Below the pieces are notes generated by a model, which was not told the origin of the DNA, searched no databases, and saw nothing but the letters and a program-made list of their open reading frames with translations. From IMG/VR virus record IMGVR_UViG_3300030012_003676, positions 1 through 29,924 of that record: a stretch of 29,924 nt of DNA; one strand, 5' to 3'. Source of the stretch: a virus. Position 1 is the first letter of the stretch. Every line of letters starts with the position of its first letter. The position numbers were made by a program, and so were the translations under genes. Shown piece after piece: positions 6,028 through 29,100 of this stretch.

Positions 6028-7776
6028 CTATCCTAACAATGTTAGTCTTAATTTAGTTTTCATTTTCTCGTTTACACTTCTTGCATATATTGTTTGTATG
6101 CTATTATAACCTGTACCTACATAACTTACACCACCTGAGTGTGCTGAATGTGATTGTCCATGAACCTCAAATTGTCCCTCACTTACATGTGAAAATTGAC
6201 AATGTCCACGTTCATAGTCTATGCTTCCTACTATTGCGTCATTATGTAAAAGGTTTCCATTACCATCATCAAGCAAAAATGCACTTTTGTTTGGTATTGT
6301 TTTTCCTGTTACAGGGTCTTCTATTTCTTCTAATGGTTTACTTGAAGCAGGTCCGTATGATATACAATCTGTGTTATTTGTAGTAGTACCAACTAAAGTA
6401 CCCTCTACAACAGGAACATTGTTACTATCTTTTGCAGGAAACCTACCTACACCAAATGGTGTAGTTCCTGTGACATTACCTATTCCAACTCTTGTGTTTA
6501 CGTTATTAGATAAAGATGAAATTCTTATATCTCCATTTACTATTCCTATATTAACTCTCTTATTATGTAAACCTGAAGATGAATCGTAATATAATGCATC
6601 AAATCTGTCTTGTATCTTAGCTAATACTGCTACGTTAGAGCCTGCAAATGTTGTATCAGAAGAATCAACAGTAAATGCTATGTTTGTTTCGCTACTTACT
6701 GAATCAAATCCATCTACATGAAATTCATCTACAACTATAGTAAACGTATAAGTTGTGCCTGCAACTAATCCTGAATCATCTGATGCTTTTATATTATTTA
6801 AACCAAAATCTAAATAACCACCTTCTGTGTAAAAAGGTCCTATTGCTACAGATCCGGCAACAAGTCCATCACCAACTTTATCTGTTGTTCTTGATTTACC
6901 AAAGAATGCACCTGATTGCTTAAAATTTCCTGCAGAATCAGTCATACATAAACTGCTATTATGCACTAAGTTCTCATTACCAAACCAAAAACTAATAGCT
7001 GAATCGTCTGCATGAGCAGCTATTGTGCTACCAAATAGACCTCTGTCTACTGTTAAATTAAAGCCTGATATTGCTGTTATTCTCATTACTTCTGAACCAA
7101 CTAATATTAAATCATTTACTTTAAAAAGACTTGAGTTATCGGTTGTTCCACTAATATCTACTGCAAATGTTTCAGGATTTAAAACTGTATTTAAATCAGA
7201 ACCATCTACTGCTGCTGTACTTGGTGCTGCTACAGATACTCCTGAAGGTAAGAAAGAGTGTGTTCCGTCAGCTGCAAAAGCTGCTGATTCTACTGCACCA
7301 CCTGCTACATTTGCAGGAGTGTAAGATAAAAATCTTGAGTGTGGTAATGCTAAAAAATGTCCTGCAGGTAGTAAGCCACTAATAAATCTTGAGTCAGAAG
7401 TTCCTGAAGAATCTAAGTCAGTTGCTAAGTTTCTAACATCTGTATCACTATCATCTTTCCAATCTTTCAAAAGTATTTGTATTTCTGCTGCTATATTACT
7501 TTCGTTCTTGATCTGGATAACTTTGGCATTGTGTGCAGTTACTTGTCCAACATCTTTGTTAAATGAAGACAATGTATATAATTCATTTGATGAACCTGCT
7601 GTTCCATTATCAAATTCTTGTGTAATATCAAACATCTCTGTATACTGCTTATTTGTTTCACATACATACTCACCATCAGGAGTTGTAATAATCATCTTTA
7701 TATTAGCATTTTTGGCTAATGAGCCTGTACTAAGCTGTGATGAAGTGTTTATAGTTCTTGTTGGTCCGTATGCCAT
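6028..7776 (-). CDS. Large virion structural protein, possible tail fibre or appendage
   Basis: A 582-residue protein rich in Ser, Thr, Gly, Asn and Asp, with predicted beta content and no membrane segment. The N-terminus (MAYGPTRTINTSSQLSTGSLAKNANIKMIITTPDGEYVCETNKQ is its opening region, residues 1-44) may be the virion-anchoring part. The middle has alternating short strands (DLILVGSEVMRITAISGFNLTV), and the C-terminus contains His and Ser-rich segments (VHGQSHSAHSGGV). It is transcribed between the fibre genes and the neck genes, behind a clear TAGGAG site. No enzymatic motif is visible. A capsid appendage, decoration protein or fibre are all possible. Confidence 0.6.
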   Translation of the reverse strand: MAYGPTRTINTSSQLSTGSLAKNANIKMIITTPDGEYVCETNKQYTEMFDITQEFDNGTAGSSNELYTLSSFNKDVGQVTAHNAKVIQIKNESNIAAEIQILLKDWKDDSDTDVRNLATDLDSSGTSDSRFISGLLPAGHFLALPHSRFLSYTPANVAGGAVESAAFAADGTHSFLPSGVSVAAPSTAAVDGSDLNTVLNPETFAVDISGTTDNSSLFKVNDLILVGSEVMRITAISGFNLTVDRGLFGSTIAAHADDSAISFWFGNENLVHNSSLCMTDSAGNFKQSGAFFGKSRTTDKVGDGLVAGSVAIGPFYTEGGYLDFGLNNIKASDDSGLVAGTTYTFTIVVDEFHVDGFDSVSSETNIAFTVDSSDTTFAGSNVAVLAKIQDRFDALYYDSSSGLHNKRVNIGIVNGDIRISSLSNNVNTRVGIGNVTGTTPFGVGRFPAKDSNNVPVVEGTLVGTTTNNTDCISYGPASSKPLEEIEDPVTGKTIPNKSAFLLDDGNGNLLHNDAIVGSIDYERGHCQFSHVSEGQFEVHGQSHSAHSGGVSYVGTGYNSIQTIYARSVNEKMKTKLRLTLLG

Positions 7777-8645: not shown

Positions 8646-9833
8646 TTAATCAATATCCATTGTTACTGTTGAGTGTATCCAAAAACTTGTTCCGTCTGTT
8701 CCTGTTGTTTTTCTTACAGTTATGAACATAAAATCGCCTTGTGTAACAGATGTAGCATTAAAAGATGTTGTTTCTTTATGTAAAAATCTACTTGCAGAAC
8801 TAAAGTCAAATGTCATATATCCTAAATTATCTATTGTCATATTTGTGGTACTTGCTAATTCTGTATCTAATGTTGGTTTACTTGCTATCCATACACCAAC
8901 TTCTACATCGCTATCTGCTGATGCTCCTGATGATTCAACGTGAGCCATAAACTTTGTAACAGTACCACTATATGGTATTCTTTTACCTGCATATCTTATT
9001 ATTCTCCACATATCCTCTGCTGTGGTGTCATTATAATCACTAATATTTGTATTTGCTATACTTGTAACTCCAAATTCATCGTGATGTAGCGATACATAAA
9101 AAACATTATTAGAAGATAAACTTGCTTGAAAATAATACCAATCTAAATATGTTTTTGCTTTTGGTGCATTAAGTACACCATTGTTAGTTATAGGTATATC
9201 CTGCCCTGTGTCATCTGTAAAATATAAATTATTAGGTGTATCATTTTTAACCCATATTTGCCCTTTACCTGCTGTATCGCTACTTGCAGAAGATGCTTCA
9301 GTAATTTTTAAATATTTACTTAAAGTTACTATTTCTGATTCAAATTCTAATAAATCATCACCGTCATAATTAATTAAATCATTTCTGTATGTTGCTTCAC
9401 CAACTGCAATTCCACCATTAAAAAAATGTATTAATTGACTACCATTATCTAAAATATATACATCTCCACCATTAGCATCTAATGCTATATCACCTTCAAC
9501 ATCTAATGTTAAATTACCACCTGCTACAATAGTATCTAATGAGGTTATAGTTAAATCACCACTTGAATATGTTACATCTGATAATTCATCAAGAGATGAT
9601 GCACCACCAGATCCGGCTTCATCAGGTTCTGTTGATACATCAACTCCGTTTACTTTAAGTGTACCATTAATATTGACATTACCATTAGCAACCTGTAAAG
9701 GCGTTGGTTTTCCTGTAATTGTTATAGGTTTTAAGGTAGTATCTAAATTACTATCATTGCCAAGCGATATAGGATTTACTTTCTTCTTTTCAAATATCTG
9801 TAATAACTTTTTTAATATTTGAGTGAATGTCAT
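8646..9833 (-). CDS. Tail-fibre-like structural protein
   Basis: A 395-residue protein. After a short basic N-terminus (MTFTQILKKLLQIFEKKKV) comes a repeat-rich stalk (residues about 45-215) built of strand pairs such as ITSLDTIVAGGNLTLDVEGDIALDA and VYILDNGSQLIHFF. A C-terminal domain (residues about 225-395) includes KTYLDWYYFQASL and DVEVGVWIASKP. Stalk plus globular tip is the general plan of phage fibres. The N-terminal amphipathic helix may be the attachment peptide. The start overlaps the stop of the 49-residue membrane protein as TAATG. Receptor binding is inferred from architecture only. Confidence 0.6.
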   Translation of the reverse strand: MTFTQILKKLLQIFEKKKVNPISLGNDSNLDTTLKPITITGKPTPLQVANGNVNINGTLKVNGVDVSTEPDEAGSGGASSLDELSDVTYSSGDLTITSLDTIVAGGNLTLDVEGDIALDANGGDVYILDNGSQLIHFFNGGIAVGEATYRNDLINYDGDDLLEFESEIVTLSKYLKITEASSASSDTAGKGQIWVKNDTPNNLYFTDDTGQDIPITNNGVLNAPKAKTYLDWYYFQASLSSNNVFYVSLHHDEFGVTSIANTNISDYNDTTAEDMWRIIRYAGKRIPYSGTVTKFMAHVESSGASADSDVEVGVWIASKPTLDTELASTTNMTIDNLGYMTFDFSSASRFLHKETTSFNATSVTQGDFMFITVRKTTGTDGTSFWIHSTVTMDID

Positions 9834-9982
9834 TACTTCTTGCCTGTCACTTTATAAATTAATCCCTTTACTGAAGACCAGATCAAATCATCCATCTCAG
9901 TTGGTGACATAGCTACTGCTTTATCTACTACTAATATGATTATAGTTACTATCTGCCAATTGTCCATTAATAAGTCTATCAT
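9833..9982 (-). CDS. Small single-span membrane protein, holin-like
   Basis: A 49-residue frame starting at ATG 9982 (MIDLLMDNWQIVTIILVVDK, then AVAMSPTEMDDLIWSSVKGL...). AAAGGAG lies upstream, and TAATG junctions occur on both sides. Residues about 8-24 form one hydrophobic helix. The SPTEMDDLIW segment after it resembles small lysis-region proteins of marine phages (from memory). Position downstream of lysozyme and two other membrane proteins suggests a holin or spanin-type accessory. Confidence 0.6.
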   Translation of the reverse strand: MIDLLMDNWQIVTIIILVVDKAVAMSPTEMDDLIWSSVKGLIYKVTGKK

Positions 9983-10510: not shown

Positions 10511-11703
10511 TACACTACCACCTTAAATATCGTTGTACCTGTATTGACCTTTGCATGACTTTTTGCGTTATATGCTTCAAGTGAAGATTCTATATTATAG
10601 CCATCTTTATAATTTTGCAAATCAATTTTAATACCATCTCTGTTACCATCTTCGTAGAATATATAACAATTTTGAGATGCCCTACCTGCCAAGTTTAATG
10701 CTTTTTCAGAATAATCATTAGCACCTACCATAGATGAAGACCTTGCAAATATATCTCCAACTCTTGCTGAATGCACATGTCCAAAAATAACGTAATCGAT
10801 TTTACACCCCCTTAGTCTATATCTTCCAATGATCTGGGCAACTGACTTTTCTATGCCTGCCTTTATAGAGCCATTACCATGAATTACTAATAAATTTTGA
10901 CCTGCTACCTCTACTACCATCTCTAATGGGTCGCCATCAATAAACTTGACATTGCTATCTTTAAATAGATACTTCAATGTTTGAAATATAGTATAATCAT
11001 AATTGTCAATAGCTAATGCATCAGACCAACCCCATTCTTGTTTTACTCTTGATTCATTACCTGTAACCATACACACAGACACATTAAAATGTTTGTTTAA
11101 ATGCACTATAATCTGTTGAAATATATCTACTGCTAAGAATGTAGCCATTGCTCTATTTGTAGCCATAGAAAGTAATTCATCAAGTCTTCTATCACTATTT
11201 AACATATCTCCTGATTGCACAAGTAGTATATTAGTTACATCAAATGCTTTGAAATACTTAATAGCTTTTTCGACAAACATTTTACATCTTGCTGAAGCAA
11301 CTTTAAAATCATACTTATTATGTTCTAAGTTAACAAGTTCATTGAAGTGAATATCAGAAAATTGTATTACACCACAAGCCTTACTATTTTCTTGGTGTTT
11401 TACAGTAACAGAAGATAACTCATAACTCTTAAATATCTTTTTTAATTCTTTATTATATTTAGAAACTGCGTTTTCAATTCTTGCATGTTCTCTAAACGTC
11501 TTACGTTCTATCCTGTTAAGGTCTTGTGCTGATTGTTTTTGTTTGGCTAATCTTACGTTTTCGGTAAGTAAATCAATATCTTCTATTATTTCAGTTGCTC
11601 TATGCCCACATACTTTGCATTGGTATCGTTGCTTGTCCTTATACCAACCACTTTTAATCATACCAACGGAATAGCATTTAGGACACACTATATTATTAGG
11701 CAT
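10510..11703 (-). CDS. Metallophosphoesterase with N-terminal zinc ribbon
   Basis: A 397-residue protein. Residues 7-32 hold a zinc ribbon (C7-x2-C10 ... C29-x2-C32). Residues about 40-105 are a charged helical linker. From 110 on is a calcineurin-like phosphoesterase: D117-I-H119, G155-D156, G205-N206-E207, H265 and G288-H-V-H291. These match the metal-binding motifs DxH, GD, GN(H), H and GHxH, except that the catalytic His after GN is Glu here, so activity may be altered. Family enzymes hydrolyse phosphodiesters or phosphomonoesters using two metal ions; the substrate here is unknown. The gene is embedded in the lysis block. The zinc ribbon suggests nucleic-acid binding. Confidence 0.85.
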   Translation of the reverse strand: MPNNIVCPKCYSVGMIKSGWYKDKQRYQCKVCGHRATEIIEDIDLLTENVRLAKQKQSAQDLNRIERKTFREHARIENAVSKYNKELKKIFKSYELSSVTVKHQENSKACGVIQFSDIHFNELVNLEHNKYDFKVASARCKMFVEKAIKYFKAFDVTNILLVQSGDMLNSDRRLDELLSMATNRAMATFLAVDIFQQIIVHLNKHFNVSVCMVTGNESRVKQEWGWSDALAIDNYDYTIFQTLKYLFKDSNVKFIDGDPLEMVVEVAGQNLLVIHGNGSIKAGIEKSVAQIIGRYRLRGCKIDYVIFGHVHSARVGDIFARSSSMVGANDYSEKALNLAGRASQNCYIFYEDGNRDGIKIDLQNYKDGYNIESSLEAYNAKSHAKVNTGTTIFKVVV

Positions 11704-11929: not shown

Positions 11930-12335
11930 TGTACTGTACGCATTGTGCTATCTTGTTGCTGTTTCTCAATGCTCGATCTGGACATTGCCTTGCCCATAAA
12001 CTGTCTAACATTTCTTTACTTGCTTCGATATACTCAAATCTTTCTATATGTTTTAATGTTTTTTTGAATTGAAATAACTTGTAATGCAACTGATAAAACA
12101 TATCTTCTAAAACTTCTTGTGCTTCTATTGGTAGTTCCTCAAAGTTTTTTATTTTTCGTATTAAGATTTTTTTATTTTTTTCAAGCTTTCTTTGAACAAT
12201 AAGTTCACAAATATCTTCTTCGAGTTCTAATGATTTTATTAAAAAACCATATCCAATTGTGTCATTACCCAAATGGTCTTTATAAACAGTTTTACGATAA
12301 CCTTCGTTTCGCTTGATTTCGTCTAATAAAGACAT
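11922..12335 (-). CDS. Endolysin, T4-type lysozyme (GH24)
   Basis: A 137-residue muramidase that cleaves the N-acetylmuramic acid to N-acetylglucosamine bond of peptidoglycan at lysis. The catalytic triad E11, D20 and T26 is visible in NEGYRKTVYKDHLGNDTIGYG, at the same residue numbers as in T4 lysozyme. The C-terminal part (MLDSLWARQCPDRALRNSN) retains the helical pattern of the family's second lobe. There is no signal peptide, so a holin is needed for export; the adjoining membrane proteins supply candidates. It is slightly shorter than T4 lysozyme (164 residues). Confidence 0.9.
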   Translation of the reverse strand: MSLLDEIKRNEGYRKTVYKDHLGNDTIGYGFLIKSLELEEDICELIVQRKLEKNKKILIRKIKNFEELPIEAQEVLEDMFYQLHYKLFQFKKTLKHIERFEYIEASKEMLDSLWARQCPDRALRNSNKIAQCVQYNE

Positions 12336-12534: not shown

Positions 12535-12704
12535 TATTTACTCGCTTTCTTTTTAGATTTTTTTACTTCTTTCTTCACAACTTCTTTGATCTGGTTGCCA
12601 TGCTTATCACATTTAATAAACTTTCTGTCTAACGATTCTTTAACCATTCTTGATGGATTATATTCAATAACTTCACCACTTGGTTTTTTATAATATACTT
12701 TCAT
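12534..12704 (-). CDS. Small basic protein after the major capsid gene
   Basis: A 56-residue protein from ATG 12704 (MKVYYKKPSGEVIEYNPSRM, then VKESLDRKFIKCDKHGNQIK...) ending in a lysine-rich tail (KKEVKKSKKKASK). AAGGAATTAAA precedes the ATG, and the stop overlaps the next ATG as TAATG, which supports expression. A CxxxG/Cys-Asp-Lys-His-Gly segment occurs mid-protein. The basic tail suggests nucleic-acid contact inside the head. No family is recognised. Confidence 0.65.
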   Translation of the reverse strand: MKVYYKKPSGEVIEYNPSRMVKESLDRKFIKCDKHGNQIKEVVKKEVKKSKKKASK

Positions 12705-13711: not shown

Positions 13712-13999
13712 TTATGATTTTTTTGATTTCAAAGTACCTTTACCCCAACCACCAAATAAACCAATTGACCTATCAGAAATCTTTTTGCCTTTTGCACTAC
13801 GTTCAGTCCTATGTTGCATTTCATCTATATAGTCTGTGTATTTCATCTTTGAACCTTTGTAGTATGCCTTTACAGAGCCATCTTCATTTGTGTTATGGAC
13901 CAGATCGCGTGAAGGGTCTAAATCTTTACCAAATGGTTTATGTCCACCATCATTTGGTTTCTTCTCGCTACTCTTGTTCATATTAATGTTATTAGCCAT
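13712..13999 (-). CDS. Small protein between scaffold and capsid genes
   Basis: About 95 residues from ATG 13999 (MANNINMNKSSEKKPNDGGH...). An alternative in-frame ATG lies 18 nt upstream at 14017 with no better ribosome site. The chosen start overlaps the scaffold stop by 8 nt and has GGAAG about 12 nt before it. The protein is hydrophilic, rich in Lys, Gly and Asp (FGKDLDPSRDLVHNT, FGGWGKGTLKSKKS), with no membrane segment. Position between scaffold and capsid suggests a head accessory. No family recognised. Confidence 0.6.
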   Translation of the reverse strand: MANNINMNKSSEKKPNDGGHKPFGKDLDPSRDLVHNTNEDGSVKAYYKGSKMKYTDYIDEMQHRTERSAKGKKISDRSIGLFGGWGKGTLKSKKS

Positions 14000-15157: not shown

Positions 15158-15876
15158 TATAGTTTTTTCGCCTCATCTATTTCATAAAACTCTGTGCCTG
15201 CGTTAGAAGCTATCTCCCACTTATGTCTACAATTAAAGCCACCACCTTTATTTAATACTTCTTCACCAAATCTTGAAACTATTTGGGATCTGGTCAATCT
15301 ACCTGCTCTTATATATTGCAAGCACTCAGGTCTTGTCTTTTCATCAGCAGGTCCTATATATACATACTTTGTATTGTCAGGTGCAATCTTCATCATTTCA
15401 TTTGTTACACTTCTTGAGTAATCATTTAATGTTGTAGTTACTAATGTTTGCATTTGTGAATTTGAAATAGATGAACTGCTAACTGTTGATATGATTGCCT
15501 GTACAGATACTCCTGCTGCAACACCTCTTACTACCTCGTTTCTTATATGTCCTGATATATTTGCTATAATTGCATTGTCAAAAAGTTGTTCATCTAATAT
15601 TGCATTTGATGTCAAGAAGTTGCTGTCCAGATCGGCAAATCCTATTGTACTTTCTAATATTTGTCTGTGTGCATCTGCATATATTTTTGTAGCATTAACT
15701 AATTTAGCTTTTAATGTTCCTTCAATATCTAAAGATAGTAATGTATTAGTCAGTTGATTTATATCTTGTGTGTTATTGCCTATATTATAAAGGTCCTGTA
15801 TTAACTCAGCAGTTGCTTTGTCAACCAAGTCTGCCATTTGTTTAGCAGCATCATCTATGTCATCTTGAATAGGCAT
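15157..15876 (-). CDS. Mu gpF / SPP1 gp7-like minor head protein
   Basis: A 239-residue protein with an N-terminal helical region (residues 1-140, rich in AAKQMADLVDKATAEL-type helices). Its C-terminal motif DEKTRPECLQYIRAGRLTRS ... GGGFNCRHKW places Cys and His as in the phage head-morphogenesis (gpF-like) C-terminus, where the pattern is DxxTRxxC...NCRC. It lies downstream of the portal in the same transcript, the standard place for this protein, which assists DNA packaging or ejection. The final Cys of the usual NCRC is His-Lys here. Confidence 0.75.
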   Translation of the reverse strand: MPIQDDIDDAAKQMADLVDKATAELIQDLYNIGNNTQDINQLTNTLLSLDIEGTLKAKLVNATKIYADAHRQILESTIGFADLDSNFLTSNAILDEQLFDNAIIANISGHIRNEVVRGVAAGVSVQAIISTVSSSSISNSQMQTLVTTTLNDYSRSVTNEMMKIAPDNTKYVYIGPADEKTRPECLQYIRAGRLTRSQIVSRFGEEVLNKGGGFNCRHKWEIASNAGTEFYEIDEAKKL

Positions 15877-16797: not shown

Positions 16798-18159
16798 TTA
16801 TTCTGTCTCTGTTGGTCTTTGTAATGCTGATAATAAAGTATTTTCAGCAACCTGCTCCTCTTGTTCATCATCTATTATTTCAGTCTCTTGTCTTTCAAAT
16901 AGATAGTCTTCTGCTTCTTCTCTTGTTAGGTCCGGATTGCGTTGCATCATTATATCTGCTAAATCAATCAATCCTTTAGACAGTTCCCAATCCCACTTTT
17001 CTCTTTGTTCTTTGTCTGATAAGATGTCTACAGTTTCACTATAATCAACGTCTTCTAAATCACCTGCATCTTGTCCTAACTCTACTGCTATTATTAACCT
17101 CTCCAGATCAAAGAGTTTATACTCAAAACTTCTCCATCTTGATATGTCTGACTTCCTATCATCTTGTAGTTCCTGATTTCTTAATCTTAATGCTACACCT
17201 GATTGTGCTGTTGTTCCATCAACAAAAGAAGTGGGCAGATGGTAGTTTTGCGATAGCATTTTATAAGATGACATGATTGAGGCATCGAGTGCAGGTATTG
17301 CGTTCGGAGGCGATACTATACTGATACTACCATCTACTCCCAAATAATTAATCTTGTCTTGCCCTATCTCCATAGTATCTTTATCAATTCCAACACCATT
17401 TACAAATAAATATCCAAATGACTGAAACATAACATTTGCGTTTTTATTAGTTTCTGCTACATTAATTGCAAGATTAGTAGATATTAAATCCATGCTTGCA
17501 TTAGTGTCCATGTACTCTGTTTCAGGTGGTCCTTCTCTCCAACATTCTACAAAAGGCAGTCTTCCATAAGGATTTACTCGATCTGGATTGTCTTCCATAT
17601 CATACATCTTGCCATTGGCATCAAAGATAAAATGATTTTCATTATCCCAATAAGCAAATAGTTCACCTGTGTCATCAAGGACCATAGACTTTCCTGATAT
17701 AGGATAAACAAATCCATAAGGTTTTAAAGGGTCATCATCAAACAAAGGCTCATAGTCGTAGATAATATCATATTCTATTCTTCCTTTACCATCTTCATCC
17801 GTTCTCCAACAGGCTTTCAAAAGTACACCATCAAGTAAATTTGTCATCCTTTCTAATCGTTGAAGCTTCATATCTTTTTCAAAGAACATGTCTGTGACAT
17901 CTTCTCTTGTATATTGTCTAACAGGAGGTGTCATATAAACCAAACTTATTCTGTCTATAATTCTTTTTGTAATATTCACATTGCCGATTGGTACTTTTTC
18001 TAATGTTTTATCATTAAAGTAGTTAGCAACATAATGTGAAGTGTCGCCTTTGTAAAAGTCTATAGCTTCATATCTTGATGCTTTCCATAGATTTTTACGT
18101 TGTTGATTTGCATCGTACTTTGACATAAGTACAGCAAGTTCGCCTAAGTTTGGTATCAT
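16798..18159 (-). CDS. Portal protein
   Basis: The dodecameric head vertex through which DNA enters and leaves. I start at ATG 18159, in ATGA overlap with the terminase stop and with AGGAG about 10 nt before it, giving 453 residues. An in-frame ATG at 18204 would bury 45 nt in the terminase gene. Portal features are an N-terminal wing with FYKGDTSHYVANYFNDKTLE, a helix-strand core (PIGNVNITKRIIDRISLVYM; FDLERLIIAVELG), a tunnel-helix region near PTSFVDGTTAQSGVALRLRN, and an acidic Gln/Glu-rich C-terminus. Position between the large terminase and head genes supports it. Confidence 0.87.
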   Translation of the reverse strand: MIPNLGELAVLMSKYDANQQRKNLWKASRYEAIDFYKGDTSHYVANYFNDKTLEKVPIGNVNITKRIIDRISLVYMTPPVRQYTREDVTDMFFEKDMKLQRLERMTNLLDGVLLKACWRTDEDGKGRIEYDIIYDYEPLFDDDPLKPYGFVYPISGKSMVLDDTGELFAYWDNENHFIFDANGKMYDMEDNPDRVNPYGRLPFVECWREGPPETEYMDTNASMDLISTNLAINVAETNKNANVMFQSFGYLFVNGVGIDKDTMEIGQDKINYLGVDGSISIVSPPNAIPALDASIMSSYKMLSQNYHLPTSFVDGTTAQSGVALRLRNQELQDDRKSDISRWRSFEYKLFDLERLIIAVELGQDAGDLEDVDYSETVDILSDKEQREKWDWELSKGLIDLADIMMQRNPDLTREEAEDYLFERQETEIIDDEQEEQVAENTLLSALQRPTETE

Positions 18160-19427
18160 CTGTCTTTTACTCCTATTGATGGTTTGTTTATGGGATATTC
18201 CCAATTAATGAAATAGCCAAAAGAATCTGAAAGGTGTGTAAGTTTCTGATTGCTTTTGTCAATCTCTCTTGTGTTTTCTTTGTTTGTGACTTGTTCTAAA
18301 TCTCTTATCAATCCTTTGCACTTTGGGTCTATAACTATATTGTCTTTAGATAGCTGATTATTAACAGCATTAACTCTATTAATTACTCTTGGATTTATAT
18401 GTGCTACTTTTACAATAAACTTATTCTGTCTTATGATACTTATATCGCTATAACGTGCAGATGAGTTTTTAGCAGCACCTGTAGCATCCGGATATGCATA
18501 GTAATAGTTGTTCGGATACATTTCTCTAATTGTTTCACACATTCTTTGTGTAGGTAAATCACCATCTCCTCCATGTGATAATGTTATTTCGTTGATAACG
18601 TGTATACTGCGATCTGGTCTAATCTGCATGATTGTAGTGGATAGAGGGTCTGTATTGAAATCCATTCCCAATCTGATTGGTAGACTTGGGTCATACTCAC
18701 ATTGTCTGACATGTTTATCTCTATCAAAGGCATAGTATGTTGCTCCTTGTGTTAAGTTGACAAATTTTCCATATAAATAAGCTTCTAATAACTTTTCATC
18801 ATAATTATCTATTAATGATTGTATATATGATTCAGGTAGATAATGATTATCTGTAGTCTTTCCATGTACTAATAACTTATCATCACTTTTCTGATTTACC
18901 ATGTACTCCCATGTGTAACCAAAACCTTCAGGAGTAGTCGTTATAAATAGTTCTGCATCTTCACATCCTCTAAGTCTTCCTAATGCTTTTTGTACAGTTA
19001 TTTCAGCTGTCTTGTAGTTTTCTATATCTAATTCATCTATCCCACAATAGGTATATGATGCACCTACAATCCTTTGTGGATAACGTGTTTGATAAATTTG
19101 TATGTTTCCGTATACAGTTTTAAATCTATGTTGAGATATGTTATAAGTATATGCAATGCCATTTCTTTCTAATATCTCTTTAAATGGTTCAACAAAAACT
19201 TGGTCTGCTAAGTTGTAAGTTGGATATAACACTAATCCATTGCTCTTACCATCTTTGTTTAGTTTAGTAATTAAACAATAAAAAACTTTACTTAATAGAG
19301 TAAAAGATTTACCACTCCCAAAGCCACCAACAAATGCACTTGATCTGGCTTTGTTTTTATTTGTAAGAAACTCCCATTGTGATGGAAAGTAATTCTTAGG
19401 ATGTAATGTCATTGGTTTAGATTTCAT
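18156..19427 (-). CDS. Terminase large subunit
   Basis: The packaging motor, 423 residues from ATG 19427 (a TTG three bases earlier is in frame but less likely). Walker A is GGFGSGKS (residues 34-41 of this start) and Walker B/acidic is TYCGIDELD near 130. The C-terminal RNase H-like nuclease has its acidic residues in RLGMDFNTDP (near 240), YAYPDATGAA (near 310) and LSDSFGYFINW (near 405). The ATPase pulls DNA into the prohead; the nuclease cuts the concatemer. It overlaps the small terminase by 11 nt and the portal by 4 nt. The length is on the short side of the family but all core motifs are present. Confidence 0.93.
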   Translation of the reverse strand: MKSKPMTLHPKNYFPSQWEFLTNKNKARSSAFVGGFGSGKSFTLLSKVFYCLITKLNKDGKSNGLVLYPTYNLADQVFVEPFKEILERNGIAYTYNISQHRFKTVYGNIQIYQTRYPQRIVGASYTYCGIDELDIENYKTAEITVQKALGRLRGCEDAELFITTTPEGFGYTWEYMVNQKSDDKLLVHGKTTDNHYLPESYIQSLIDNYDEKLLEAYLYGKFVNLTQGATYYAFDRDKHVRQCEYDPSLPIRLGMDFNTDPLSTTIMQIRPDRSIHVINEITLSHGGDGDLPTQRMCETIREMYPNNYYYAYPDATGAAKNSSARYSDISIIRQNKFIVKVAHINPRVINRVNAVNNQLSKDNIVIDPKCKGLIRDLEQVTNKENTREIDKSNQKLTHLSDSFGYFINWEYPINKPSIGVKDR

Positions 19428-19815: not shown

Positions 19816-20424
19816 TTAAAATAATGTACCTTGTTTTGTTAGGTTATCTACTCTTTCTTTTGCCTTATTATAATATTCTTCATCTATCTCTATACCAACT
19901 AAATCAACCCCAAAGTAATGACAAGCAACAGCAATACTACCACTACCCAAATGAGTATCTAATATCTTTTGTCCTTTTTCTGAATAGTTATGCAATAGCC
20001 ATTCATATAGTTTTACAGGTTTCTGTGTAGGGTGTATTCTTTTTCCTTTTTGTTCTGACCTATGAAATCTAAAAAACCTAACTGCTTTATCAAAAGATGT
20101 CCAAGCCATTTCACCATCTGCAAAAGAAAACCCATCATTTTTTTTATCCCACACAATCCAACAACTGCTATCATAAGGAATTTTGCTAATAAAATGATTA
20201 GCACCCCATATTATTTGATTCTTACTTATTCTTATAAGTTCATTAAAATACTTTTTATTTGGTGATTTATTATCCCAATTTTTAATTTTATGTTTGCTAC
20301 CACTCCAATTATTATTGCCGTCCATTCCCAATCCATAAGGTGGGTCTACAATAGCCAAATCAAAATGGTTATCATCATAATCCTTCATAACATTCATACA
20401 ATCATCTAATATTAAATCTATCAT
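19816..20424 (-). CDS. DNA amino-methyltransferase (N6-adenine or N4-cytosine), DPPY type
   Basis: A 202-residue enzyme transferring methyl from S-adenosylmethionine to an exocyclic amino group in DNA. Catalytic motif IV is D27-P-P-Y30 (LAIVDPPYGLG). The S-adenosylmethionine-binding motif I comes later in ILDTHLGSGSIAVACHYFG, followed by LVGIEIDEEYY. The order IV before I marks the beta class. HPTQKPVKLYEWLL is the usual conserved bridge between the two. There is no partner nuclease, so this is an orphan phage enzyme, probably for evasion of host restriction. Its recognition sequence cannot be read from the protein. The CCAGATC signal in this genome makes it an obvious suspect. Confidence 0.88.
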   Translation of the reverse strand: MIDLILDDCMNVMKDYDDNHFDLAIVDPPYGLGMDGNNNWSGSKHKIKNWDNKSPNKKYFNELIRISKNQIIWGANHFISKIPYDSSCWIVWDKKNDGFSFADGEMAWTSFDKAVRFFRFHRSEQKGKRIHPTQKPVKLYEWLLHNYSEKGQKILDTHLGSGSIAVACHYFGVDLVGIEIDEEYYNKAKERVDNLTKQGTLF

Positions 20425-20443
20425 ACTTTTTCCCTGATAATTA

Positions 20444-20815
20444 TTACTTTCTTGATATAATCGTTTTATATTCTTTGCCTATTACTTGCTCAACTTTAAG
20501 ACTTAAATATTCAGGGCAATCATCAAATATAAAGTTTTCTTCGATAAGTGCATCAATTAAATGTTTACATCCACCAATTAAGTTGTCCAGATCAAGAAGT
20601 CTCTTTCTAATACTTATAATAACTAATCTGTATTTCTTTGGTTCTGCATCAGGTATTTTATTCAGCTTCATTTGATTTCTTATTAATAAAGCATATTCCT
20701 TTTTGTCTCTACGTTTTACTGCCCAATGCTCTCTATCGAGTACGTTTCTTGATTTAATTCTTACAGGTATGTCAATAATAGAAGGCATAAAGTCACGCAT
20801 CCGACGACACTCCAT
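20444..20815 (-). CDS. RusA-like Holliday junction resolvase
   Basis: A 123-residue endonuclease-like protein with the RusA signature: IIDIPVRIKSRNVLDREHWA at the N-terminus and D-x-D-N in KRLLDLDNLIGGCKHLIDAL, the metal-binding motif. Further acidic residues follow in FDDCPEYLSLKVEQV. RusA enzymes cut recombination junctions as symmetric dimers, here probably resolving branched replication or recombination DNA before packaging. The start is uncertain: ATG 20815, 20800 and 20788 are all in frame, and the last best matches the usual beginning of the family. Confidence 0.83.
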   Translation of the reverse strand: MECRRMRDFMPSIIDIPVRIKSRNVLDREHWAVKRRDKKEYALLIRNQMKLNKIPDAEPKKYRLVIISIRKRLLDLDNLIGGCKHLIDALIEENFIFDDCPEYLSLKVEQVIGKEYKTIISRK

Positions 20816-20860
20816 ACCTTCTACTATTTTTAGCTTCTACCAATAACATAATATAGTTAA

Positions 20861-21115
20861 TTATGCTTGTGCTTTCCATGGTTTTGTTTCCTTAAAAGTT
20901 AATTCTTTTACATCTATCTCTTTAAATTTTTTGTTTTTAGCTGACCTTAAATAAAATATCATTGCAGAAAAGTCTAAAAAATTAATATGATACATTTGTG
21001 TTTGATGTATAAATGTTGCAAACATACATATTGTTTTCTTTTCATGCTTTTGTAAAAATTCATCGTAGTCTGTAATGTTCATTATCACATACTCATGTAA
21101 TTGCATTCTATTCAT
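20861..21115 (-). CDS. Small unknown early protein
   Basis: An 84-residue protein (MNRMQLHEYVIMNITDYDEF...) in ATGA overlap with the cytosine methyltransferase stop, with GAGG about 8 nt before the ATG. It has predicted strands and a Lys-rich C-terminus (FKEIDVKELTFKETKPWKAQ), no Cys pairs and no membrane segment. I recognise no family. Tight coupling to a DNA methyltransferase suggests an early function, possibly related to host takeover or DNA modification. Confidence 0.6.
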   Translation of the reverse strand: MNRMQLHEYVIMNITDYDEFLQKHEKKTICMFATFIHQTQMYHINFLDFSAMIFYLRSAKNKKFKEIDVKELTFKETKPWKAQA

Positions 21116-21747
21116 ACAGATGCCTCTAATATTTCTTTACATAATTCATAAGGCACTTTACTTCTTTCATACGCATTTTTTTTTGTTGCTTGCATTCCTG
21201 CACTATTATCGCCTCTTGGTGCAGGTTCATGGTGACAAATCTTACTACTGTTTCTACATTCTGAACGTGGACACCAACCATCAGGATTAAATAGTGAATA
21301 TAAATTATTTGTAAATATATCAGTAGGTTTTGCCAAGCTAAAGCCATACTTACAATACCATACAGTTGTTTTTGGTATACCTTTCATAAAAGGCATTTTT
21401 CTTAATATTGCTCTTGGGTTTTCTATATAATATATACAATTAAAATGTTTAATTATTTCTATCGTTTTTTTCACAAGCCTGTCTGATTTCTTTGCAAAAT
21501 CACTATATGCTACTCTGTCTCTTGTTCTATGATGTCTGCATCCTGCTAAACTATAGCTTTGACATGGTGGACTTGCCCAGATCAAATCAGGTTTAAAAGG
21601 TATATCACTTATTTCTAACATCTCTACATCCTTAACTAAGTCTATTTTATCAAAAGATTCATTGTCAACAGTAAAAGTTTCATGTCCTAATTCCTCAGCA
21701 ACACTGCTAAAACTTCTTGAACCTGCAAACAATTCTAACACCTTCAT
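21112..21747 (-). CDS. Short C5-cytosine DNA methyltransferase
   Basis: A 211-residue enzyme that would make 5-methylcytosine using S-adenosylmethionine. Motif I is LELFAGSRS (residues 4-12). Motif IV is ASPPCQSYS with the catalytic Cys62, and the ENP of IYYIENPRAIL stands for motif VI (usually ENV). RSKVPYELCKEIL at the C-terminus occupies the place of motif X. The target recognition domain between motifs VIII and IX is nearly missing, so it is much shorter than typical 300-400 residue enzymes, but such compact versions occur in phages. TAATG coupling links it to the upstream gene. The target sequence is unknown. Confidence 0.85.
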   Translation of the reverse strand: MKVLELFAGSRSFSSVAEELGHETFTVDNESFDKIDLVKDVEMLEISDIPFKPDLIWASPPCQSYSLAGCRHHRTRDRVAYSDFAKKSDRLVKKTIEIIKHFNCIYYIENPRAILRKMPFMKGIPKTTVWYCKYGFSLAKPTDIFTNNLYSLFNPDGWCPRSECRNSSKICHHEPAPRGDNSAGMQATKKNAYERSKVPYELCKEILEASV

Positions 21748-22121
21748 TAATCAGGAAAGCCATCATATTTTGTTTTAACATTAAAACCAAATCCCTGTTG
21801 TGCATCATCTTCAGGTGCAAATGTTGCTTTTTCCATCCCACATACAGCATCATTAATAAACTTAATCCTGCTACGCATTTGTCTTATTGTATGCTCCATT
21901 TGATACTTATTCCTTGCATAAAAATAGCCATTACTATCTGAGCATATAGGTAAATGTAATACTGAACGACCATAATGTACAATGCTTCTTATCTCTGCTC
22001 CTGATAAACAAAACTCTAACTCTAAACTTTTTGACGTAGTTTTATTTTTAATGTTTCGAGTTTTTAAATACTCTATTACATCCCAAATTTTGTTTTGTGC
22101 TTTCTTTGTCATTTTAATCAT
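21747..22121 (-). CDS. Unknown early protein, possible DNA-binding
   Basis: 124 residues from ATG 22121 (MIKMTKKAQNKIWDVIEYLK...), which has AAAGGAG 6 nt upstream and overlaps the HNH stop as ATGA. A reading from 22169 would lack support. The first 70 residues look like a winged or plain helix-turn-helix (IKNKTTSKSLELEFCLSGAE, IRSIVHYGRSVLHLPICSDS, NGYFYARN), as in small phage regulators. The C-terminus is acidic and then aromatic. It may be an early transcription or replication accessory; no family is certain. Confidence 0.65.
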   Translation of the reverse strand: MIKMTKKAQNKIWDVIEYLKTRNIKNKTTSKSLELEFCLSGAEIRSIVHYGRSVLHLPICSDSNGYFYARNKYQMEHTIRQMRSRIKFINDAVCGMEKATFAPEDDAQQGFGFNVKTKYDGFPD

Positions 22122-22393
22122 AGATTCTCCTTTAAATATGTGCTTAAATAATAATGATTTTCTTTCCATACGTTAACATCAAACTTATCCTCAAAGTCTT
22201 TTAGTGTCATACTATGTCTCATAATATGATGTGTTCTACATAATGGAACACATGAGTAATGTTCTATTAAATCAGGCTTTTTTCTGTCTCTACCCATTCC
22301 GATCTGGTGCAAATGGTCTGCATCACATGGTCCTCTAAAACATACTATGCACTTTTGTTTTTTAATATAATCTATAAAGTCAATTGGCATCAT
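22118..22393 (-). CDS. HNH endonuclease-like protein
   Basis: A 91-residue protein with a compact zinc-bound HNH fold. C15-x2-C18 and C48 ... C52 flank the catalytic D26-H27 (CDADHLHQIGMGRDRKKPD) and the H55-H56 ... H60 helix (VPLCRTHHIMRH). The arrangement resembles the YbcO/DUF968 nucleases of phage recombination modules. It lies between the replication initiator and the methyltransferases in overlapping frames (ATGA at both ends), so it is more likely part of the early operon than a homing intruder. It could also assist packaging like other phage HNH proteins, but it is far from the terminase. Confidence 0.8.
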   Translation of the reverse strand: MMPIDFIDYIKKQKCIVCFRGPCDADHLHQIGMGRDRKKPDLIEHYSCVPLCRTHHIMRHSMTLKDFEDKFDVNVWKENHYYLSTYLKENL

Positions 22394-23184
22394 ATTTTAT
22401 TTGGATGTAATTGGTCTCCACAACAACGACTATCTTCTATATGTGGCTTTTTATAAAAATCTGATTTATTACATTTTTGACAATAAGCCAACTTATTATA
22501 TCCTGTTGTGTCAAACTTAAAATCTTCATAAACATATTTGGTAGATTTTGGAATATTCCAATCCTGTGTGTTTTGCAACCATTTGCTTAACCTGCGTTTA
22601 ATATCAAAAGTTTTTTGCATTTCGTATCTCATTTTTTGACCATTAACATTAGATTCTGTCCAATAATCGCAAAAGTTTTTTACCATAGTTTCATCAAATT
22701 TTTCTTTGTTTTCTTTTGAAATTCCAATAACTAAATTTATAAATTTTTCTTCTCTTTGTTTAATTGTTTCTTTTATTAAGTTATTATTGTTTGATTTTGA
22801 TTGCAGTTTGTTTTCAGTTTGTCTTTGATCTGGTCGCATGTTGTTTTCAGTTTGTATATTCTGATAACTATCATAATTACTTATAGTTATACATGTTGCT
22901 TTGGCTAATGGATTTACAACAATCATATCTTCAGTTTCCATTAATTTTAAATAGGACCTAAGCTTTGTTGTACCCCAATTAAATTGTTTACATAGTTGCT
23001 GTTGCGATGTGACAAAACTGCCTCTTTTTACATTTAACATGTGATTACCTAATAAAAACTTGCCCTCACTATGGTTTGCTCTTAATAGCATCCAGATCCA
23101 TGCTTCAAACTTAGAAAAGGTCCTGCGTTCTTTAAATATAGGATTTTCTATAATTTTTCTGTGTAAGCTTATCCAACCTTTCAT
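22390..23184 (-). CDS. Phage replication initiator / replisome organiser
   Basis: 264 residues from ATG 23184 (MKGWISLHRKIIENPIFKER), which has AAAGGA at the right distance. The ATG at 23199 lacks one. The first 115 residues form a winged-helix domain of the DnaD/replisome-organiser type: WISLHRKI, SKFEAWIWMLLRANHSEGKF, LKRGSFVTSQQQLCKQFNWG-style helices, then CITISNYDSYQ. A charged linker rich in Asn, Gln and Lys follows. A C-terminal zinc-finger-like end carries YCQKC ... SRCC. Such proteins bind the phage origin and recruit host helicase. Direct repeats within the linker region often mark the origin in this family, but I see none convincing here. Confidence 0.78.
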   Translation of the reverse strand: MKGWISLHRKIIENPIFKERRTFSKFEAWIWMLLRANHSEGKFLLGNHMLNVKRGSFVTSQQQLCKQFNWGTTKLRSYLKLMETEDMIVVNPLAKATCITISNYDSYQNIQTENNMRPDQRQTENKLQSKSNNNNLIKETIKQREEKFINLVIGISKENKEKFDETMVKNFCDYWTESNVNGQKMRYEMQKTFDIKRRLSKWLQNTQDWNIPKSTKYVYEDFKFDTTGYNKLAYCQKCNKSDFYKKPHIEDSRCCGDQLHPNKI

Positions 23185-23215
23185 TGTGTTTCCTTTCATT
23201 TTTTAGGGAAAGGAT

Positions 23216-23276: not shown

Positions 23277-23894
23277 TTAAAACGGAATTTCATCCTTTTT
23301 TTCTAATGGAACAAAGTCATCAGGCATTCCACCTTCTTCCGATTCTTCAGGTGTATTATTTTCTTCAGGACCTTTAGAACGTCTTTGTAGTTCTGAGTTA
23401 GCTTCTTCTCTTTGCCAATCCACATTAGAATTTCCTGCAACCCATTTCACATAATCTTCGTCAACATCTTTCCATTCTTTACCATTATGTTTACCAAAAT
23501 TAATGATATATTTAACAGTTCCATCTTTACCACTTTCTGTTGTGGTTTTTTCAGATTTTTTTGATCTGGACTTGTCAACATTATATGATTCAATCTCATT
23601 TGCAGAAGCAAATTCTGAACCAAACCAACCTGCTGCTGACAATGCTCGCCCTAATGCATGTGTTTCAGTTGCTTCAAGTGTCTTTGCTTTACCTAATTCA
23701 CCTAATGCATTACCTGTGTATGTTCTTGCAGTATTTTCGCTATAAATGGTCAATATTGCTTTTACTATAACAACACCACTTTCATACACTACATCTGTTT
23801 CTAATGAATAGTTCTTTCTTCCAACTTCATCAAGAAGCATATCCATCCTTTCAACTACTGTATAATAGTCTTTACCTTTTAGTTTTATTGGCAT
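23277..23894 (-). CDS. Rad52/Erf-like single-strand annealing protein with SSB-like tail
   Basis: 205 residues. Residues 1-105 show the pattern of phage single-strand annealing proteins (KLKGKDYYTVVERMDMLLDE; YTGNALGELGKAKTLEATET; HALGRALSAAGWFGS). Residues 128-172 (YIINFGKHNGKEWKDVDEDY; VKWVAGNSNVDW) match a small domain found at the end of ExoX-type exonucleases and other DNA-repair proteins. After an acidic linker the protein ends KKDEIPF, nearly the DDDIPF tip by which bacterial SSB recruits partner enzymes. The role is probably annealing and recombination during replication. The start is ATG 23894 with AGAGGA 7 nt before it. The three-part layout is what I see; the function is inferred. 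Confidence 0.75.
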   Translation of the reverse strand: MPIKLKGKDYYTVVERMDMLLDEVGRKNYSLETDVVYESGVVIVKAILTIYSENTARTYTGNALGELGKAKTLEATETHALGRALSAAGWFGSEFASANEIESYNVDKSRSKKSEKTTTESGKDGTVKYIINFGKHNGKEWKDVDEDYVKWVAGNSNVDWQREEANSELQRRSKGPEENNTPEESEEGGMPDDFVPLEKKDEIPF

Positions 23895-24650: not shown

Positions 24651-25706
24651 CTAAATTTGCTCTTCCAATTCTATAGAAATGTTATAAAGGTTAGGAGTTT
24701 TTTGAACGATCTGGTAGTTGCTTTTCATTCTTACTAATGCAAAACCTTGTGGTGAAAAATCATCTTTATCTACTTGCAACATCATTGGCAAATGACCCCC
24801 AAGTGATTTATGAACACAATTACTATAAAAGTCTATCGCATTATTAATATTATATTGACTTTTGTTATCAACACCATATACTGCATGATTATCTTTTGCG
24901 TTCCAACCATTGCTATTCATCATCATTAGTTGATTCATAACTTTTTCAGGAGCAAGGCTGTCAAACTGTAGTTTCCATTTTCTTCTACCTGAACGTCTTT
25001 GAAAGTTATCGCCTTCTTCTGAGTTAGTAAGTCCCCATGGTTCTGTAATCCAATTATTAAGCTTGGACCAATTCAGATTAGATATGGTTTTACCTGTTAT
25101 TGTTTCTTTCTGTGTTACACCATAGTCTATAGAAAAAGTTTCAGATAAATTAGCATTTACAGGAAACTCAAATGCTTTACCCCACATAATTGAACCAAGC
25201 TTTAATTTGTTAAATGTAACACCATTTAAAGAATTTAAATTCAGTCTAAATGTTCTGTAGTCTTGATCTGGTTTATCTGTAATTGACATCAAACTCCAAC
25301 CATCATAGTCAGGTATGCTATTTGGTACATAATTGACCAATTGAGACATTGCTAAATTTATCGAGTTTTGGTCATTAAGTGCCTCTATGCTTGGTATTAA
25401 TCCTGATGTGTGCAAATTATGCCCTAATATCGCAAAAAAATCATAATTCCATAAACCTTGTTCAATAACATTTGTAAAATTATCAGAATTAGGTACAATT
25501 TTATAATCCATCGCAATATTTACATTACCTTGTATATCAACTTGCATAAATTTTGCAGGGTCTAATTGTAGTAACTTTATTAATTGTTCATCTGTTATGT
25601 CTGCTCCATCTACACTTATAGCATCTAATGCACCTGATGCATATTGCCATAATGGATAACTAACATATAATTTTGGTTGTGTTGCAATTTGGTAATAACT
25701 ATCCAT
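24651..25706 (-). CDS. Tail-associated structural protein, last gene of the late transcript
   Basis: 351 residues from ATG 25706 (MDSYYQIATQPKLYVSYPLW...), with AAGGA 7 nt upstream. An in-frame TTG just before is less likely. The protein is beta-rich, and its YPLWQYASGALDAIS start resembles tail-tip-region proteins of other marine phages (from memory). A central FSIDYGVTQKETITGKTISN, a WGLTNSEEGDNFQRRSGRRK segment and a C-terminal strand region (YQIVQKTPNLYNISIELEEQ) resemble distal-tail (Dit-like) proteins. It overlaps the previous gene by 8 nt and is followed by the terminator. Distal tail or tail fibre attachment are the likely roles. Confidence 0.6.
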   Translation of the reverse strand: MDSYYQIATQPKLYVSYPLWQYASGALDAISVDGADITDEQLIKLLQLDPAKFMQVDIQGNVNIAMDYKIVPNSDNFTNVIEQGLWNYDFFAILGHNLHTSGLIPSIEALNDQNSINLAMSQLVNYVPNSIPDYDGWSLMSITDKPDQDYRTFRLNLNSLNGVTFNKLKLGSIMWGKAFEFPVNANLSETFSIDYGVTQKETITGKTISNLNWSKLNNWITEPWGLTNSEEGDNFQRRSGRRKWKLQFDSLAPEKVMNQLMMMNSNGWNAKDNHAVYGVDNKSQYNINNAIDFYSNCVHKSLGGHLPMMLQVDKDDFSPQGFALVRMKSNYQIVQKTPNLYNISIELEEQI

Positions 25707-26161: not shown

Positions 26162-29100
26162 TTAATCTTGTAAAATTATATTTATCATTTCAAGTATTGT
26201 TGAAACATTTATAGCATCACTATTTAATTTTAATTTATTTTGGTCAGATATAGAAAGTGTTTCTGTCCCTAATACATGATTAACTGCTGTTGTTAAATCA
26301 TTTACGTTTATAAATCCGTCATTATTTAAATCATAATATGGAATCTCTATACCATTATCAACTGTTGCATTAGGATTATAATTATAATTTGGAATTTGTA
26401 ACCCTAAACCTTCATAATAAGTATTATATTGCTGCATGTTGCCTATAATCTCATAATTTTCTTGTTCAGGCATAACAAATCCATGATTGCCATCTATGCC
26501 TAAATAATGTAGTTGAACTGCCTTAATTTTCATGCTATTTATACCTAAGTCAGTTTCCATAATAATCCATAAGGGATACACAGGTTGTGAATTGACATAA
26601 CTAACAATACTATAATCTATATTAAATGCAAAATCATTATTAATTAGTGGAATATGTAGTATATCTCCAATTTGCAAGTTGCAATAATTAAGTGTTAGTT
26701 CTGCATTGATTACATTATGCACATTACAATTATTAAGTAAACTATACTTTAAAAAATTATCAACTGTATTATGGTCAGAATGATATTTTAAATTAATTGT
26801 TTTTCTAACATCTTCAGGAATTATATTATAATTTTCATAAGCAGTCAATTCATAATCAGGTAATAATTCATTTATTGACATTGTTCTTGTTTCTTCATAT
26901 CTGTTAAATCCATTGTCAAATCTAAAGAAAGCATCAACTTCTGTGTAAATATCTTCTCTTTTAGTTTGGTCAAAATTATATTTAATGATGTCATCCAGAT
27001 CAAGAATTACATCTATATCTTCATAAGTGTATGAATCTTTAATAGTTAAAAATCCAAATGTGCCATCCATGTTAAATTTAGGATAAGACTTTGACTCTTT
27101 ACATATGTCTTCTATCAGTCTTTTGCCTGATGTCTTTCTATTTAAACTAAATGACATTTTGAAATTATTATGTGCTTGCCTTGATTCTTGTATAGACTCT
27201 ATATCAAATTTTGAATAGTCAGGCATGCCTACTAATTCATTATTTGCTTTTCCGAAATGCATCTCATTAACTAAAATGTTCATTATTATGTCTGTTGGTT
27301 TTTCTATTAATCCATTTGTTGTTAATGTTAGTGCTTCGCCTTGAAGATAACTATTATATATAGTAATGATTTCATTAATAATAGGGTCAAAGCTATATAA
27401 ATTACTTTCAATTAAAGTAGAAAAATATGGAATTGGTCTAAATTCACCAAGATAATGTGTCCCATCTAAATCTAATTGTGTAAAGAATACAGCAGAATTA
27501 TTCACAAGACCTTGGTATGTAGCACCTTCATGGAAAGTGTAGTATCCTACTAATGTGCCTGTATCATTTCTAATTTCATCAAAACTTGTATCAAAGTTAC
27601 CATCAAAGTTTTGAATTATATGGTCTAAATACGTAGGTAAATTAATGAATATTTCTTCAAATGAATCTATTTCATTCATAGGTATTTCTGAAAATGTTAA
27701 ATTTCCTGCATGTGAATGATAAAATGGGTCTATATAATTTACATTAACTAAATGAGGTGTCCCTGAAACAGCAACATCAGGTGGTAAATTATCAGGTGTG
27801 TATCCATGTGCTGTGTCTGTTTCTGTTAAATTGTTTAGATTTACATGATATACACTTAATGCATTTTCCCAATTGTCCATATTTATAGTCCTATATGTAA
27901 AAGAAAAATCATAATCCCAATTTCCAAAATTTTCATTATTAAATATGTATCTATAAATAAGTTTGCCAAAACTTTTTAAAAAATGCTCAGTAAAAAAGCA
28001 TCGATGATTGTAAGCTGTAGGTTGTAATAAAGGGTCAATATTATACTTAATTTCAATATTTGAATTTATAGATTGAATAATCTCAGAAGATAAATTGCCT
28101 GAAAATTCTGCTGAAGCATCACGGTGTCCGTCACCATTATGAATGATATAAACTACTCTTAAAAAAGATTTCATTAATAAATCTGTAAGCATGTAATAAC
28201 TATTATAAAAAGGTGATGAATGTAATCCTTGCATATTATTTTCAATAGCAGCTTGCACTATTTCTTGATAATTTGAAGGTTCAAAAATTAATCCTAATTC
28301 TTCTTTGGTATATATGATAACATTACCATTACTGTCTTCATAAGGAATTACATTGTCAGCTATTTCTATCATTGCGTTTGCAAATCCGTTTAATAGTTGT
28401 TCGCTATCTTCATTTACTGCATCAGCGTTTAACAATAATGCTTGCTCGTATGAAATGTCATCAGTAATACTTAAATATGATTGGTAGCTTTCTGCATCTA
28501 TCTGCTCTGTAAAGGTATGATTTTTTCTACCTTTTACTGAACCAAATAATTTTTTTGTTCTTATGTCTTCTATTTGTAATGCGTGTACTAAGCCCATACC
28601 ACTTAATTGCAATCCTGAAGTCATAGTATTATTTTCATGCGATGTATTACCAAAAGAAAGTTTTGATTCATGTATTAATATCTTGTCTATATCTTGCTGC
28701 TCTTGTATTTCTGCATCATCACCATAATACTTGCCTTGTATAGGTGTCCAGATCGGATGCCTATCCTGACCAATAATAGCACTTCCCCTTGTTCCATAAA
28801 AGTTACATGTCATAAAAGATTCTTCATCAATATCACATTTTATAGGACATTTTGCATAAGGATTATTGTTATCAATAATATTTTCGCCTTCAGGTGCAGG
28901 ATCTGGTTCGAAAGTTTCAACTTCGTGTTCAAATGACGTTCCCTCCATAATTGTTATAAAACCTGTTGAAATTGGTGCAAAAGTAGACTCCTCATTATCG
29001 TTTCTTGCTAAAAGCCAATGCATAATTGTGTTTCTAAAAGAATCATCTTTTCTATAGGTTGCATTATTACTACCATCTTCAACTCTTAAAGATATGTAGT

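Follow-up and report, generated by a model that had tools for sequence, protein, structure and literature searches.

Highly iterated palindrome (HIP) sequences of cyanobacteria occur about once per kilobase and overlap the sites of orphan methyltransferases, GATC among them; alternate HIPs, based on other motifs, are found in lineages with other methyltransferases, and GATC is otherwise under-represented (PMC4390886). Phages receive no mention in the text of that paper (PMC4390886). Among phages themselves, Chi motifs are over-represented, selected and spread along the genome (PMC3784561). Here we describe a seven-base word, CCAGATC, in the phage record IMGVR_UViG_3300030012_003676 (29,924 bases, GC content 31.6%), which was analysed over its whole length and is hereafter called the window, together with two DNA methyltransferase genes that a first-pass annotation of the same sequence had linked to the word. 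The phenomenon is real and unusual, and by analogy it resembles a variant of the HIP system.

CCAGATC occurs 29 times in the window, compared with a mean of 1.11 and a maximum of 5 in dinucleotide-shuffled sequences. The 158-base terminal repeat, which leaves ~29.77 kb of unique sequence, does not inflate this count, as there are still 29 sites in the 29,766 unique bases. Codon or protein bias was likewise ruled out as the source of the excess, since 1000 synonymous-codon permutations of the coding part yielded 2.7±1.5 copies (maximum 8) against the 27 observed. Moreover, the two tetramers that overlap within the word are confined to it. All 29 occurrences of CCAG and 29 of the 30 occurrences of GATC (62 expected) lie inside CCAGATC; outside it there are 0 CCAG (86.5 expected) and 1 GATC (59.6 expected), whilst the inner word CAGAT is present at a normal level (79 vs 66 expected). 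Taken together, these counts indicate that just two tetramers, which overlap, are forbidden and that their fusion is favoured. The copies fall on both strands (15 plus, 14 minus) with no orientation bias relative to transcription, at a density of about one per kilobase (29 in 29.8 kb), and their spacing is more even than random (coefficient of variation 0.56, p=0.0004). Their positions, and that of the only GATC outside the heptamer, were obtained by word count and are as follows:

947-953, plus strand, CCAGATC
1812-1818, plus strand, CCAGATC
3477-3483, plus strand, CCAGATC
5249-5255, plus strand, CCAGATC
5519-5525, plus strand, CCAGATC
6851-6854, no strand assigned, sole GATC outside the heptamer (ACAGATC)
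7510-7516, minus strand, CCAGATC
9607-9613, plus strand, CCAGATC
9878-9884, plus strand, CCAGATC
10831-10837, minus strand, CCAGATC
11975-11981, minus strand, CCAGATC
12588-12594, minus strand, CCAGATC
13900-13906, plus strand, CCAGATC
15287-15293, minus strand, CCAGATC
15627-15633, plus strand, CCAGATC
17103-17109, plus strand, CCAGATC
17580-17586, minus strand, CCAGATC
18611-18617, minus strand, CCAGATC
19342-19348, minus strand, CCAGATC
20587-20593, plus strand, CCAGATC
21577-21583, plus strand, CCAGATC, inside the C5 gene
22301-22307, minus strand, CCAGATC
22827-22833, minus strand, CCAGATC
23092-23098, plus strand, CCAGATC
23563-23569, minus strand, CCAGATC
24708-24714, minus strand, CCAGATC
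25265-25271, minus strand, CCAGATC
26995-27001, plus strand, CCAGATC
28748-28754, plus strand, CCAGATC
28900-28906, minus strand, CCAGATC

Around these sites a purine is preferred at position -2 and A or T at -1. T never stands at +1 of the 29 sites even though it makes up about a third of bases; in the related word CCTGATC of a sister clade, T is next in half of the cases. Mutational drive towards CCAGATC was considered and rejected. A change at position 4 removes both tetramers; such mutants number 4 (CCAAATC), 0 (CCACATC) and 9 (CCATATC) against 8.7 expected jointly, and as they are not depleted overall there is no sign of near-site conversion. The idea that conserved residues are sacrificed to the heptamer was also dropped, because none of the nine CCAGATC codons at columns conserved in all relatives deviates; tolerant positions are used instead. 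In the paper library searched, neither CCAGATC nor CCTGATC appears as a separate word in any text that also contains 'motif'.

Relatives of the window by terminase large subunit (TerL) are IMG/VR contigs at 73-93% identity. The list of avoided words differs from one of these relatives to the next, and the CCAGATC excess is absent in most. However, a sister clade, comprising L049 (=L002), L050 (=L003), L007, L147 and L272, has a dialect of its own, CCTGATC, which contains every GATC of these contigs (21/21 in L049, 10/10 in L050, 9/9 in L007, 17/17 in L147 and 8/8 in L272). CCTG in this clade is nearly always CCTGAT (32 of 33 in L049), except in a recombinant block in L007. The avoided CCWG word tracks the dialect: the window avoids CCAG and not CCTG, whereas L049 avoids CCTG and not CCAG. 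L049 and L050 are 93-97% identical and have nearly all CCTGATC sites in common. A further contig, L051, matches the CCTGATC phages in blocks at 95-97% identity (95% to L049 over 1.5 kb) and contains neither GATC (0 vs 29 expected) nor a heptamer. Single component words are avoided in other phages of the set, CCAG in G001, L077 and L293, and GATC in L051, G016 and G020, which fits host restriction. Scanning the loci fetched for family comparison and L269-L353 revealed no further full composite word in the family beyond these two.

Other word patterns were seen in the same set. Both tetramers are over-represented in the relative G017 (L179-L180, 30.8 kb), with 181 GATC (73 expected) and 183 CCAG (89 expected), the opposite of the window. 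Of the marine phages L293, L321, L314 and L305, some have no CCAG and CCTG approximately doubled, others 0-1 CCTG and CCAG at normal or raised levels, a pattern which suggests that each of these non-palindromic tetramers is restricted separately. In L066, AACGTA is present in 19 copies that contain most of the CGTA and two thirds of the ACGT, and is possibly a weaker composite word.

The explanation we favour, tentatively and with less than even confidence, is that CCAGATC serves as an iterated, HIP-like mark, specific to this lineage and under active selection, which is modified or shielded and of which the C5-cytosine methyltransferase described below is perhaps the writer. CCAG and GATC would be avoided as restriction sites and CCAGATC would be their overlap, within which both words would be tolerated, most simply through modification or shielding of the heptamer. 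As CCAGATC is exempt from the avoidance of CCAG and GATC, it is probably modified or covered. Whether the whole family carries lineage-specific 'password' heptamers (CCAGATC, CCTGATC), each built from two forbidden restriction words and positively selected because, once modified or bound, it would provide a protection or self signal of a kind undescribed in phages, is a wider proposal that we consider possible but doubtful.

The main rival is a Chi-like signal, whereby a host enzyme of the AddAB/RecBCD type would read CCAGATC as a recombination or anti-degradation motif, the phage would accumulate copies to survive the exonuclease, and CCTGATC would be the variant of the sister host. Chi motifs of seven bases are known in other bacteria, and copies on both strands, spread along the genome, are in keeping with such a role. 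However, it does not account for the avoidance of precisely these two tetramers, CCAG and GATC, outside the heptamer, or for the switch from CCAG to CCTG as the avoided word of the sister clade, and L051 has no heptamer despite its near-identity in blocks to the CCTGATC phages. We regard a Chi-like role as unlikely, though it is the strongest competitor.

The heptamers could instead be sites for a phage DNA-binding protein (nucleoid-like, shielding or a repressor) that sterically hides CCAG and GATC. Even spacing, weak flank preferences and the fact that restriction words are tolerated nowhere but in the site speak for such a protein, but the heptamer begins and ends in an avoided word, which would then be a coincidence, and one that had happened twice. 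Stoperator-type repressor arrays are oriented with transcription, unlike the 15 to 14 division found here, and comparison of the relatives revealed no candidate binding protein confined to heptamer phages. This explanation appears improbable.

Pure retention fares far worse. The first-pass annotation had suggested that the GATC sites retained would be those that can be protected; in its pure form, restriction purges GATC and CCAG and only copies protected within CCAGATC survive, without bringing any benefit. This accounts for the confinement of both words to CCAGATC. However, it cannot yield their number: a neutral simulation, in which every CCAG or GATC outside CCAGATC was lethal, reached an equilibrium of 0-1 heptamers rather than 29, which excludes simple retention and leaves the pure form with next to no probability. 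Of the 25 window sites that could be compared with aligned relatives, 21 have neither word in the homologous codons of any relative, a point weakened by the fact that many relatives themselves avoid CCAG or GATC. Moreover, several of the L049 sites occupy positions at which relatives have GAT AAA GAT or similar codons that contain neither word. The simulation and the site comparisons together indicate that heptamers are being acquired and maintained. The remark in the same annotation that enrichment above random calls for an additional benefit was thus well founded. For the selected, HIP-like mark that we favour, the weakness of retention means that there must be an added benefit from every copy, and the number of sites and their even spacing suggest that this would act locally, about once per kilobase.

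The writer of such a mark may be the C5 enzyme of a swapping cassette between the genes for a DnaD-like loader and a RusA-like resolvase, perhaps together with a host enzyme. The genes concerned are as follows:

19816-20424, minus strand, beta-class N6/N4 DNA methyltransferase, 202 amino acids (PF01555, phrog_67); proposed writer, not supported
20444-20815, minus strand, RusA-like resolvase, delimiting the variable cassette at one end (phrog_34)
21112-21747, minus strand, short C5-cytosine DNA methyltransferase, 211 amino acids (PF00145, phrog_757); possible writer, unproven
22118-22393, minus strand, HNH nuclease-like open reading frame (ORF) adjoining the C5 gene (PF16784, 45.5 bits)
22390-23199, minus strand, DnaD-like helicase loader, delimiting the variable cassette at its other end (phrog_2514)

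Both methyltransferases, which the first-pass annotation had recognised as a beta-class DPPY enzyme and a short C5 enzyme, were confirmed by coordinates, motifs and profiles. In profile searches the N6/N4 enzyme scored 70.4 bits against PF01555 (cut-off 26.7), placing it in that family, and it carries DPPY (residues 27-30) before HPTQKP...DTHLGSGS, the beta-class order. The C5 enzyme scored 27.6 bits against PF00145 (cut-off 22), which makes it a predicted member, and contains LELFAGSRS, SPPCQ and ENPR, with the catalytic PC and EN. Both are orphan-type enzymes. Their description as lacking partner nucleases needs qualifying, as the HNH ORF, considered as a possible restriction-modification partner, is located upstream of the C5 gene at a distance of ~370 bp, and the RusA-like ORF sits between the two methyltransferase genes.

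The N6 enzyme is of adenine type and is encoded by the genome that carries the heptamer, and GATC contains an adenine; that it writes CCAGATC is nevertheless highly improbable, because a 203-amino-acid N6 protein is identical in L007 (CCTGATC) and L051 (GATC 0, no heptamer), the gene is absent from heptamer-bearing L049 (where TerS adjoins RusA), which is 98-99% identical to L007 in aligned blocks, and the specificity segment of the window enzyme is common to two phages without CCAGATC, Tenacibaculum phage JQ (GATC 0 vs 22 expected in 21 kb) and L057 (GATC 0 vs 49 expected in 21 kb). The shared variable segment is GMDGNNNWSGSKHK..., WDKKNDGFSFADGEMAWTSF.... The N6-TerS block of L007 (L007:2529-3910) is nearly identical to L051 and the remainder of the contig matches L049, an apparent recent recombination; the block looks recently imported because its CCTG words break the rule of the clade. 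Judging by these sequence comparisons, the N6 enzyme is probably not responsible for the heptamer.

The case of the C5 enzyme is different. The content of the DnaD-RusA slot varies: the short C5 gene occupies it in the window, the same 290-amino-acid C5 enzyme in all CCTGATC contigs that cover it, and a different C5-like gene in L051, while further contigs have other methyltransferases or nuclease-like ORFs there. Small ORFs resembling PD-(D/E)XK nucleases, different in each relative and with weak or no profile matches, adjoin RusA (L047:916-1452, L045:4510-4959, L049:5343-5744). Several observations weigh against the C5 enzyme as the writer. The 84 loci with homologues of the short C5 are mostly without the heptamer, although their specificity regions are up to 67% identical; G010 carries a C5 gene of the window type and has no heptamer; the association between C5 type and heptamer is known from two clades only; and the observations are equally compatible with a factor encoded by the host. 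A mild excess was seen at just one of the 84 loci, L280, whose short C5 is 62% identical (CCAGATC 8 vs 1.3 expected, with 8 of 20 GATC inside it). L133, with a 61% identical C5 and an adjoining N6 gene, was checked as a heptamer carrier and has none. The residue after the catalytic cysteine is Q in the window C5 and T in 83 of the 84 homologues, a change which may or may not alter the target. Since the C5 enzyme of the slot differs between heptamer types, but some 80 phages with homologues mostly lack the heptamer, it is a possible, unproven writer and would not be sufficient alone. The proposed link between methyltransferases and heptamer is therefore contradicted for the N6 enzyme, and survives for the C5 enzyme as possible yet insufficient.

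Beyond the cassette, the window encodes TerL, a TerS-like protein and a major head protein besides the RusA-like resolvase and the DnaD-like loader, and its annotated genes lie on the minus strand. Named relatives (Tenacibaculum phage JQ) suggest a host among marine Flavobacteriia. In the host search, TerL found no relative on genome contigs, and the N6 enzyme matched five distant genomes. Further words are avoided in the window (observed/expected: CTAG 0/73, GGCC 0/19, GCGC 0/11, CACTG 1/42, AGCTC 1/31), and CATG occurs 78 times in it yet is absent from its closest relatives.

Set against known systems, the two methyltransferases are, by profile match, ordinary members of the phage orphan DNA methyltransferases (PF01555, PF00145), the N6 enzyme being dissociated from the heptamer. 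As in phage restriction-site avoidance, the window has no CTAG or GGCC and almost no CACTG or AGCTC; however, a fused word in 29 copies does not arise by avoidance alone. Like the Chi motifs of phages (PMC3784561), CCAGATC is short, over-represented and genome-wide, but it is tied to the avoidance of its component words, which is not known of Chi motifs, and is described here from phage sequence. It resembles HIP1 and the alternate HIPs in being short, in occurring about once per kilobase, in overlapping a GATC that is otherwise rare and in having a dialect in relatives. However, HIPs are palindromic and belong to cyanobacterial chromosomes, whereas CCAGATC is non-palindromic, resides in a 30-kb phage and confines both component words almost totally. 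As precedents, HIP sequences come closest overall and Chi accumulation in phages comes closest where a selected benefit is concerned, neither explaining all features. A phage genome that gains, and does not merely avoid, a word built of two restriction-like words, with two dialects in close relatives, thus provides a natural comparison for the causes that make iterated motifs build up in genomes where they overlap methyltransferase sites, a question open since HIP1, in a 30-kb genome in which every site can be counted.
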